Below are positions 3,682-30,667 of a DNA stretch of 48,284 nucleotides, piece by piece. Within the stretch, counting starts at the first letter, position 1. Each line of letters begins with the position of its first letter. The stretch is from Solobacterium sp. (lineage in GTDB: Bacteria > Bacillota_I > Bacilli_A > Erysipelotrichales > Erysipelotrichaceae), in the NCBI GenBank assembly GCA_017536885.1, contig JAFWCM010000103.1, forward strand, positions 1 to 48,284, read 5' to 3'. A model generated the notes under the pieces. That model was not told where the DNA came from and made no database searches. It saw only the letters and a program-made list of their open reading frames with translations. The position numbers and the translations under genes were made by a program.

Positions 3682-3960
3682 TTAGTCAGGGAAACGTTCC
3701 CTGAGCATCTTCATAAGCTCTTCATGAGAGAGATCTCTTCCGTCAGAAAGCTCATATTCGTTGCACCAGTAATCACCCGCAGAAATGCCCTTGAAGCTGA
3801 TACCGGATTTTTCCATCAGCCACTTGCTGATATCGAAATTATTCCAGATTTTATAGTTTGGGTCATGTCTCTGGATAAACTCCTTGAGTTCTTTCATCTG
3901 TGCTGGATTTCCACCGCCTACGTTTTCCAGGTCCTGCTGTGAAATATTGTTATCTGTCAT
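3682..3960 (-). CDS. Small protein with double-glycine (bacteriocin-type) leader
   Basis: A 92-residue protein. The N-terminus has the acidic pattern SQQDLENVGGG, which resembles the double-glycine leaders processed by C39-peptidase ABC exporters: hydrophobic residues at -4 and -7 and a Gly-Gly cleavage pair near residues 16-17. The remaining 75 residues are hydrophilic with one Cys and several Trp/Tyr, and they match no core peptide I know. The start is well supported by AAGGAGA seven bases upstream and a TATAAA-like box about 20 bases further. A hairpin (TCAGGGAA/TTCCCTGA, 3686-3704) overlaps the last codons. No exporter or modifying enzyme lies next to it. It could instead be an ordinary small protein that happens to have a GG pair. 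Confidence 0.6.
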   Translation of the reverse strand: MTDNNISQQDLENVGGGNPAQMKELKEFIQRHDPNYKIWNNFDISKWLMEKSGISFKGISAGDYWCNEYELSDGRDLSHEELMKMLRERFPD

Positions 3961-15545: not shown

Positions 15546-15921
15546 ATGACTGAAAACACGAAGAAGTTTTTGGAAGCTCTCAGCAAGCAGGACAAAGCAT
15601 TTTCGGAAAAAAGTGAAGAAAGCTGACAAGGCCGGCGTCATTGCCTTGGCAAAAGAACTCGGCATCACGCTCTTAGATGAGGATTTTGCAAAGCCGGAAG
15701 ATGAGGGTGAACTCTCTCTGAAGCAAGCGGATTCGGCTTCCGGCAGAAAGAAATGTTACTGTGCCGTCGGCGGCGGTGAATCGGGTCCCAATGACGAAAC
15801 CTGCTGGTGTGTTGCGGTTGGAACCGGCGATGGGTTCCCGCGCTGGCACGGCTGGTGCGACGCGACGGAAATCGAGCGCTGCATCTGTGTCGGCGGGGGT
15901 TATGGCGAATCATACGATTAA
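15546..15921 (+). pseudogene. Nif11-type Cys-rich natural product precursor, frameshifted at an A6 tract
   Basis: Removing one A from the run at 15607-15612 joins two frames into one 124-residue peptide. Residues 1-58 match the Nif11-like leader pattern (FLEALSKQDKAF, then VIALAKELGITL, then GELSL). The rest is a Gly/Cys-rich core with seven Cys: CYC (70, 72), CWC (86, 88), WC (104) and CIC (112, 114), separated by GGG-containing stretches. Nif11-leader peptides are substrates for ribosomal peptide modification and export. The usual GG before the core is replaced by SG here. No modifying enzyme or exporter is visible nearby. As sequenced, translation from 15546 stops after 26 codons. The break could be a mutation, slippage or a base-call error. 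Confidence 0.7.
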
Positions 15922-27114: not shown

Positions 27115-30100
27115 ATGAAGAAAGTTTTATCTTGTCTTTTTGCATTGTGAACGGCAGCTGCTTTAACGACCGGTTTTATCTCTGTCTCAGCAGAAGAGGC
27201 GGACCTTTCAGAAGACAGCACGACTGAACCTGTACAGGAAACTGAGAACAAGGAAAACAGTTCTGACCCTTCTTCGGAAAATGAGAACTCTGTTCAGGAA
27301 GACTCTCTTCCCGAACCCGGTGAACCAGATACCCCGGAAGATGCGGATCAGACCGGGGAAGTTCCGTTCAGCACCGAAAATGATGAAACTGTCAATGATC
27401 CCGAAGAAAATGAAGAAAAAGAAGAATCTCTTGCCATGCAGTCCGAGGCATTGGATTCCCCTGAGCCGCTGACATTCACCGTACAGCCGCAGCCGCAGAC
27501 CGTAAACTATCCGGATCCTGTGACATTTCACGTTGAAGTATCCGATCCTGACCGGGTCGCTTCCTGGCAGTGGTATGTAACAGATATGGCCGAAAAGGAT
27601 CATCTTCTGGACGGTGTAACGGCCGCAACCGATACGCTGAAGTATCTTGCCACCACAAAATATGATAACGGACAGAGGTTCTACTGTCAGGTTACCGATA
27701 CAGACGGCAATGTCATCAGCTCTGACAAAGCTGCTGTCACCATCGCAAACTCCGATGAAGTCCTGAGTCTGTTATATGTAGGGGAATATGCCCTGTCCCC
27801 GGGGGATTCCATCGATCTTTCCGAAACAAACTACGGAACGGGAGTCATTTCCTTTGATCAGAACGGCAGAGATTTCACCTTTGATCATGTTGCCATGAAA
27901 AATGACTGGGTTTCCTCCGGATCCATTCTGACCCTGGCAACCAATGTTGCACTGTTCGGTGAGGCACATACAGGAGACGTCAGTACTCTCACACTCATCG
28001 GAGAGAATGATCTTGACAATTACTACTATTCCGAAAAAACGAACACCAGCGGAGTTCCCCTGGAGTACTATATCCTCGGCGCGCAGGAAAATCAGATGAC
28101 GTGTGTGATCGATGGTCCCGGTACACTGGCGATTCACGGCTGAACAAATGCAATCTATTCTTTGGCGGATCTCACAGTGAACACAGGTATCACCGTAACT
28201 CCGAAACACCTTTACAACGATGGAATCTGGGCAAAGAATATTACGATCAGTCCGAATGTCGAATTGAATCTCGATGTATTGGGAACAGCGATTATGACGG
28301 AAAAATCTCTTACGCTCGGTGAGGGTTCAAAACTTAATATAACCACCCTTGCGCCGCATTACGCAGGGGCAGAGACGGAAGCGGGAGTGATCTATGTAAA
28401 AGACGGCAACGCTTCGATCAGGAACGCGGAGATCAATATCGATGCCGGAGCGGATCCGGAATTCTTTGAACCTTACGGCAAGTATATCGGTGCGTTTCAC
28501 GGAATCCGGGTCGAGGGCGGTTTATTCGCTGAAAACAGCCATATTAATATCAATATGTGGGCGAAGAAAGGCGATAAACCTTACGCTTCAACCTTTACCG
28601 GTATGGTAACTGAACTTCATAATCCTATTGAACTCACCAGCACGGAAGTGAATGTCACGATTCATTCGGAAGATATCTATAATGCCAACGGTCTCTACAC
28701 TTCCGGAGCCCTGACGATGAAAGACAGCACCGTATCCGTCGATCTTCAGGCAAATGACCGAATCAGAGGCATTTTCTGCGGTGGTGAATTCACCGTGACC
28801 GATTCCGATGTTGAAGTGATTGCGGAAGAACTGAGCGGTGCGAAAACCTACGGTATTATTGCCGGAGAAAGTTATTTCTCGCTCTCAGGCAGTCACAGAA
28901 TTCACAGTGCCGCCGCAAACGGCATTGGCTTCTGTGCCGATACGCTGGAGAACGGCGCAGCGGACAGAGAATATGAGGAAGGCTATCAGTCTGCTCATAT
29001 CTTCCTGAATGACAAAACAGAGTGCCTGGTTCCGGATAATTATCTGATCAGTCTGACCAGTATTGAGGATCCGTTCGTGTATTATGAATATTACGAAACC
29101 TATTATGAACCGGAGGATACTTCCGCTCCCGCTGCCGAAGTTCTCATTGCAGCGAATGAGCCGGAGTATACCTACACCGACGGTACAGAACACTTCTGGA
29201 AGACGGGAAGCAGTGACGGTCTTGACGCTGTTGTAAAACGCGGAAACAATGATTCACATGCATTTGAGAAATTTACCGGAATTCAGGTGGATGGAACGGA
29301 TGTCTCCGCTTCCGATTACACAGCGGAAGAAGGAAGCGTGAGAATGATGCTGAAACCGGAGTATCTCAGCACCCTGGACTTCGGAAGCCATACGCTCACC
29401 TCACTGTTTGAGGACGGATCGGCAGATACGCAGTTCACGATCGGATCAGAAACCCCGGAAATCACCATATTCATCACCGGTAATTCCGTTTCTTCCGTGT
29501 ATAACGGGAACGAACAGACAGCGGAGGGATTTGAAGTTTCCTGTGCGAGCAGTCTGTTTGATGAGAACGATCTGTCTCTTAAAGACGGTGTCATCTATGA
29601 AGCCTCCGGCAGGGATGCCGGGATCTATTACATGGGCCTGAGCCCCGACTCCTTTGTTTACAGTGATAAGACAGTCGGCGCAGTCCTGGTCGTAGAAGAC
29701 GGAACACTTATGATTTCTCCTGCACCGCTCACGGTAAGAACGGGATCCGCATCGAAATACTATGACGGCAAACCGCTTTATAATTCACAGGCGAAGCTTT
29801 CCGGGCTGGTAAACGGGGAAACCGCGGAAGTAAAGGCGACCGGTTCGCAGACAGCCGTCGGTTCCAGTAAAAACACCTATGCCATCTCCTGGGATACCGC
29901 GAAGAAAACCAACTACATCATTATCGAAAAGCTCGGAATTCTGACCGTCAGAGAAAAGGGAAGTTCGTCTGATTCCGGAAGCAGTCCGTCCTCCGCCGGC
30001 GGGCAGTATTCTTATTCTCCGCAGGTGATCAATACTGCCGATTCGCATGAGATATCCCATTGGGCAAGGACGCTTGTCATTTCGATCTGCACCGCAATCC

Positions 30101-30135
30101 TTTCGGCATGGATGATGAAACAGAACAGGCTCTGA
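27115..30135 (+). pseudogene. Large surface protein gene interrupted by two in-frame TGA codons
   Basis: One frame of 1,007 codons runs from the ATG at 27115 to the TGA at 30133, broken only by TGA at 27148-27150 (codon 12, inside the signal peptide) and at 28141-28143. With both read through, the protein has a signal peptide (MKKVLSCLFAL, then TAAALTTGFISVSAEE), a Glu/Pro-rich linker, an Ig-like domain (SWQWYVTDM and QRFYCQVTD, about residues 122-215), a long beta-rich region resembling parallel beta-helix or carbohydrate-binding modules, an MBG/YDG-like domain (LTVRTGSASKYYDGKPL, about residues 870-945), a Ser/Gly linker and a C-terminal hydrophobic segment. Both stops become GGA (Gly) by one change. 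There is a recent pseudogene or readthrough; the code is otherwise standard. Confidence 0.75.
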
Positions 30136-30286
30136 TCTTCGGGAAACCATATCTGCGGTTGACAACACCATTGATGCATCTCTTGCACAGGGAAAAGGAG
30201 TTCGGCATGGCATGCATGCCCTGCACTCCGTATGGAGGGGGCATTGCTCATACGTATAAGAATTTGAGAACAAGGAGGATGCAGTT

Positions 30287-30667
30287 ATGCATGAAAAAAC
30301 ATTACTGACTGATGATGAAATAGATCGCGTTTCCGGCGGTGTGCTTCAGTCTACGGAACATACTGTTATGATCAGCAGTTCCAATTTCGATTCGTTTATC
30401 CATTCGGCCGAAAATGTCGCCGTGATGTTCGGGGCTTGCTGGTGCGGTCCCTGTCATATGATGTCCGAGACATCCGAGCGTTTTGCGGCGAAGAATCAGC
30501 ACGCTTCCGTCGGCTTCGTTGATGTGGATGAGCCCTCAAACCAGAAACTGACAGATGCGCTGGGAATCAATGCAATTCCTGCCATCTTTTATTACAAGAA
30601 CGGAGTACTCAGCGACCGGACAGCCGGCGTTGTTCCGCTCGAGCGCATGGAGCGCGCATTCCAGTAA
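30287..30667 (+). CDS. Thioredoxin-fold protein with a double-glycine secretion leader
   Basis: A 126-residue protein. Residues 1-18 (with LTDDEIDRVSGG) match bacteriocin-type double-glycine leaders: acidic, with hydrophobic residues at -4, -7 and -12 before Gly17-Gly18. The rest is a complete thioredoxin domain with CWCGPC (active-site Cys53 and Cys56) and the cis-Pro in NAIPAIF. Family knowledge implies that a C39-type ABC exporter would cleave after GG and export a redox protein; no such exporter is in the window. The start is firm: AAGGAGG lies eight bases before the ATG. It lies 151 bases after the broken surface-protein gene. A non-exported thioredoxin with a chance GG extension is the alternative. 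Confidence 0.85.
   Translation: MHEKTLLTDDEIDRVSGGVLQSTEHTVMISSSNFDSFIHSAENVAVMFGACWCGPCHMMSETSERFAAKNQHASVGFVDVDEPSNQKLTDALGINAIPAIFYYKNGVLSDRTAGVVPLERMERAFQ

Follow-up and report, generated by a model that had tools for sequence, protein, structure and literature searches.

A thioredoxin with a double-glycine leader as a probable cargo of C39-peptidase exporters in Solobacterium sp.

In a window of 48,284 nucleotides from Solobacterium sp. (i.e., the whole stretch of contig JAFWCM010000103.1 that was analyzed), we found an open reading frame (ORF) in which a double-glycine (GG) leader directly precedes a thioredoxin domain (Table 1). Both the leader and the C39-peptidase ABC transporters (PCATs) that could recognize it are genuinely present in this genome. 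We consider that the encoded protein is probably an extracytoplasmic thiol-disulfide oxidoreductase that is exported by a PCAT instead of the Sec route. The more specific proposal that this thioredoxin-derived oxidoreductase tends the thiols of Cys-rich proteins sharing its GG leader and exporter is put forward tentatively, as a possibility with less in its favor.

Table 1. Features of the window that bear on the GG-leader thioredoxin
Feature	Position	Strand	Details
Thioredoxin ORF with GG leader	30287-30667	+	126 aa; ATG start
Shine-Dalgarno sequence AGGAGG	30273-30278	+	Eight bases 5' of the ATG of the thioredoxin ORF
Double-glycine leader MHEKTLLTDDEIDRVSGG	30287-30340	+	Residues 1-18; L-12, E-8, I-7, V-4, G-2, G-1
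Mature cargo (108-aa thioredoxin domain and stop codon)	30341-30667	+	Pfam PF00085, E 5.1e-16
Met47 at the buried Asp26 position	30425-30427	+	Asp kept in 54/54 relatives
CGPC active site	30443-30454	+	
Second GG-leader ORF (MTDNNISQQDLENVGGG and 75-aa cargo)	3682-3960	-	No known domain
Cys-rich peptide (KKCYCAVGGGE...CWCVAVG...CICVGGG)	15613-15921	+	Core also on contig C257 (GG leader) and in congener G484
MBG-domain surface protein	27436-30135	+	Two ORFs, each in its own frame

A previous interpretation based on the nucleotide sequence alone (here, the sequence-only reading) had described a leader ending in SGG in front of a CGPC thioredoxin, and our analysis confirmed the ORF, its start, the leader, and the domain. 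The position of the Shine-Dalgarno sequence supports the start codon that takes in the leader. The leader agrees at all positions with the consensus of PCAT substrates, L(-12)xxxE(-8)L(-7)xxxxG(-2)G(-1), which was defined experimentally with structures and mutants (PMC6959990, PMC6363468), and it carries each of the residues used to assign such substrates (i.e., L-12, E-8, L/I-7, and GG at -2 and -1). In residue-shuffled proteins of the window, the strict form of this motif arose at a rate of 1.7e-6 per residue (approximately 7e-5 per N terminus), so that a genome of 3,200 genes would be expected to contain 0.2 by chance. The thioredoxin ORF is the only ORF of the window with the strict form.

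The mature cargo is a member of the thioredoxin family by profile score (PF00085, residues 27 to 122; 59 bits versus a cutoff of 23.5), with the CxxC and cis-Pro residues in place, and the nearest solved structures by sequence in the PDB are thioredoxins and protein disulfide isomerase (PDI) domains. A comparison with 54 thioredoxins from relatives indicated that CGPC, Trp31, cis-Pro76, Gly84, and Gly92 are kept, while three residues that are invariant in 54/54 cytosolic relatives are replaced (Asp26 by Met, Lys57 by Phe, and Pro40 by Glu). An additional Cys lies two residues ahead of the first Cys of CGPC. The earlier description of the thioredoxin as complete therefore holds for the domain, its CGPC center, and its cis-Pro, but the protein is divergent at these three positions. 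Asp26 and Lys57 are important for the reduction chemistry of thioredoxin. Their loss makes it unlikely that the protein acts in the cytosol as a thioredoxin that thioredoxin reductase recycles, and it also scores below the cutoffs of the canonical TrxA families (60.7 versus 96.8 bits for TIGR01068; 32.3 versus 138 bits for NF006898). Pfam and NCBIfam profile searches with the ORF yielded no match to a bacteriocin precursor family.

The other thioredoxin-like proteins of the genome place this divergence in context. The canonical thioredoxin, encoded on contig C122, has Asp at position 26, while five proteins that, as judged by eye, carry a membrane anchor, a lipoprotein signal, or fused membrane domains have V, F, N, S, and N at this position; a sixth protein, whose location is unclear, has N. 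Loss of Asp26 thus tracks an outside location in this genome. The genome also encodes a CcdA-TlpA fusion and hence has a means of thiol traffic across the membrane; VKOR was not found in the genome.

These observations bear on one alternative, i.e., that the protein is an ordinary cytosolic thioredoxin that resembles a leader-bearing precursor by chance or acquired a leader by fusion but stays in the cell. Such a reading would fit a singleton gene with no adjacent exporter and a fast-folding product. We nevertheless regard it as unlikely, given the chance of the full consensus (approximately 7e-5 per protein), the Shine-Dalgarno sequence placed at the start of the leader, the loss of Asp26, Lys57, and Pro40 against 54/54 relatives that keep them, and the canonical thioredoxin already encoded on C122. 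An even less probable alternative is that the thioredoxin fold serves as a secreted protein without redox function (e.g., a signal, a bacteriocin, or a surface building block) and retains CGPC by descent only. The loss of several residues of thioredoxin catalysis and the lack of recognizable enzymes among the other GG cargos (see below) are consistent with that idea; however, all of CGPC, Trp31, cis-Pro76, Gly84, and Gly92 are kept, and the exported TlpA-like proteins likewise lack Asp26.

Four C39 ABC proteins (PF03412; designated C21, C242, C277, and C26 by contig) are encoded in the genome (3.4 Mb in 316 contigs). Their best NCBIfam match is in each case NHLM_micro_ABC1 (NHLP/Nif11 export), with only C21 and C242 above the cutoff. 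ABC2 partner genes adjoin the C39 genes (three by family matches below the cutoff, and that of C242 by position), and a precursor resembling those with NHLP leaders is encoded beside the C242 exporter genes. The catalytic Cys, His, and Asp are intact in C21 and C242, which provides the genome with C39 exporters competent in these residues. In the C39 domains of the other two proteins, C277 lacks Cys and His and C26 lacks His; both are still paired with ABC2 partners and are perhaps non-cleaving exporters.

The sequence-only reading had proposed export by a C39 ABC transporter and had named the absence of any such exporter from the genome as evidence to the contrary. The fit of the leader, the four exporters, and a large set of GG cargos give this proposal good, though indirect, support. 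Its expectation of an adjacent exporter was not borne out, since a PF03412 profile search detected no C39 exporter gene on the window contig (C284; 48 kb), nor was the leader conserved in any homologue that we found. Adjacency of exporter and substrate genes is usual but not obligatory.

We propose that the leader would dock on the C39 domain of an NHLP-type PCAT, probably C21 or C242, since only these two keep the catalytic Cys and His. Cleavage of the leader after GG would then release the 108-aa cargo for passage out of the cell, where the CGPC center may exchange disulfides in a redox direction that we can only infer. The likeliest clients, at a guess, would be either further Cys-rich members of the exported GG set or else proteins of the cell surface. 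Thioredoxin folds fast, and its export may be hindered. In the microcin V system of Escherichia coli, export falls sharply at a cargo of 116 aa (PMC10231218), which by analogy is a real caution for the export of a 108-aa cargo. The sequence-only reading is correct that small peptides are the normal load of GG leaders, yet proteins of comparable size have already been proposed as PCAT cargo (i.e., Faecalibacterium MAM, with a 135-aa precursor; PMC12184118).

The genome contains many other candidate cargos. A leader pattern (Shine-Dalgarno sequence, D/E followed by a hydrophobic residue, V/I, and GG) gave 38 matches, some of which overlap or are not leaders, versus 0 for a reversed-pattern control. 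Together with a bacteriocin-signal search, this led to a collection of 26 GG-leader ORFs, including the thioredoxin ORF and approximately 25 other plausible ones, a second of which lies in the window (Table 1). The other 25 cargos are 33 to 99 aa long, so that the 108-aa thioredoxin exceeds them all; they contain 5.4% Cys in their mature parts, and 13/25 have CxxC. Many resemble zinc ribbons, some are Nif11-led, and none is a recognizable enzyme. Three paralogous Cys-rich cargos with long leaders (L046, L052, and L060, on C256, C33, and C162, respectively) have FPNCAxTVxxxSWCxxxDACxxxxVxY in common, which also occurs in congeners (L155, L159, and L164); L046 was without a family-library match.

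Similar sets of Cys-rich GG cargos are carried by congeners (22 cargos listed, including one or two doubtful cases). Among 70 congeners, the median raw count of leader-pattern matches, which includes background such as the GGG motifs of Rossmann folds, was 9 in the 19 genomes with a full-length PCAT versus 4 in those without (P = 1.3e-5 with the present genome left out; the species are related, and this value is only a guide). The present genome has the highest count in this set of species.

The composition of this cargo set raises the possibility of a disulfide helper, i.e., an exported protein whose job is to form, rearrange, or reduce disulfides in Cys-rich GG cargos that leave by the same exporter, in the manner of PedC/BrcD or BdbA/GccCD. 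Cargos rich in Cys and CxxC occur both in this genome and in congeners, thiol-disulfide oxidoreductases are known from glycocin clusters (PMC12457901), and the PedC/BrcD family acts in the maturation of class II bacteriocins (NCBIfam). Set against this, the thioredoxin gene is unlinked to any cargo gene, congeners with similar cargos lack a GG-leader thioredoxin, the cysteines of the many zinc-ribbon-like CxxC cargos would be metal ligands and not disulfide partners, and the score of the protein for the PedC/BrcD isomerase family (TIGR01295) is far below the cutoff (15.4 versus 120 bits). We therefore think this role possible but doubtful.

One potential partner, pointed out by the sequence-only reading, is the Cys-rich peptide encoded in the window (Table 1). 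The peptide itself is genuine, but it lies approximately 14 kb from the thioredoxin ORF, shares no operon with it, and has a leader ending in SASG rather than GG. Its core belongs to a family (C-x-C-x-V-G-G-G-(G)...C-x-C...C-x-C/C-C-C...GGGG) found behind different leaders, i.e., SASG in the window, GG in a paralogue on C257 (L057), and a Nif11-like leader in congener G484 (L160); neither of the two members scanned (from the window and C257) had a library family match above the cutoff. A partnership between this peptide and the thioredoxin is a possible inference. The flanks of the thioredoxin ORF, with an MBG-domain surface protein upstream and a Bmp lipoprotein downstream, give no functional hint. 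The two ORFs into which the surface protein gene is split may reflect a frameshift or a sequencing error.

The GG-leader thioredoxin is a singleton within the sampled species. Neither approximately 100 relatives, in which some matches were not followed back as far as their start, nor 395 genomes sampled from the class, with matches listed at E 1e-14, yielded a homologue carrying a GG leader. A strict pattern (Shine-Dalgarno sequence, leader, and WCGPC) applied to 84,980 species revealed no genuine second GG-leader thioredoxin, none was found in plasmids, phages, and viral contigs, and a search of about 1,000 whole genomes returned no other one. The pattern scans required AGGA and a fixed spacing range and had the gene of the window as their sole positive control; their sensitivity is limited, and rarity is an upper-end statement. 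The strict pattern matched four times among the 84,980 species, each time by chance, and in none of these cases did the thioredoxin frame carry a GG leader. A single outside match to a looser WCxxC pattern (392 genomes; in another genome from the family of the present one) was likewise due to chance, its visible part being amidase-like, and in a fecal "phage" match (H16), the SGG before Met was a Shine-Dalgarno sequence read through. The gene context of the ORF is not shared by the flanks of the relatives' thioredoxins examined. Accordingly, the search for homologues with a conserved leader came back empty, and a leaderless homologue in the same context, which would have weakened the proposal, was not encountered either.

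In its leader, the protein is like the CtA peptide of Clostridium thermocellum, the LahA peptides of Lachnospiraceae, and the similar-sized MAM of Faecalibacterium, which have L-12, E-8, L/I-7, V/M-4, and GG and a C39 exporter in the genome (PMC6959990, PMC6363468, PMC12184118). Unlike these, its cargo is a recognizable enzyme of a universal family, and its exporter is not adjacent. PedC/BrcD, BdbAB, GccCD, and ThgCD are likewise redox proteins of the thioredoxin fold tied to Cys-containing exported peptides; however, they sit in bacteriocin or glycocin clusters, while the GG-leader thioredoxin bears a PCAT leader and lies outside any such cluster. These proteins are membrane- or Sec-targeted. 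With thioredoxins of the TlpA/ResA type, the protein shares a non-Asp residue at position 26 and, by our reading, an outside location, but that type uses Sec, lipoprotein, or membrane anchors (five such proteins in this genome), and the GG-leader thioredoxin is closer to classical thioredoxin by profile. It resembles cytosolic TrxA in its domain, CGPC, and cis-Pro (35% identity to the TrxA-like protein of the same genome) and differs from it in lacking Asp26, Lys57, and Pro40, in its GG leader, and in scoring under the equivalog cutoff. GG-leader substrates of PCATs are already known; on the basis of its predicted features, a redox enzyme as PCAT cargo would be new.

If the leader works, the bacteriocin exporters of gut-type Bacilli would carry enzymes besides peptides. 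The thioredoxin would then join approximately 25 diverse GG-tagged proteins, one could test whether PCATs have a secretome served by a redox helper of its own, and the case would serve as a warning against calling bacteriocins from GG leaders alone. Additionally, should the protein prove to be a PCAT cargo that tends thiols, PCATs would offer small enzymes a general way out of the cell that is independent of Sec.
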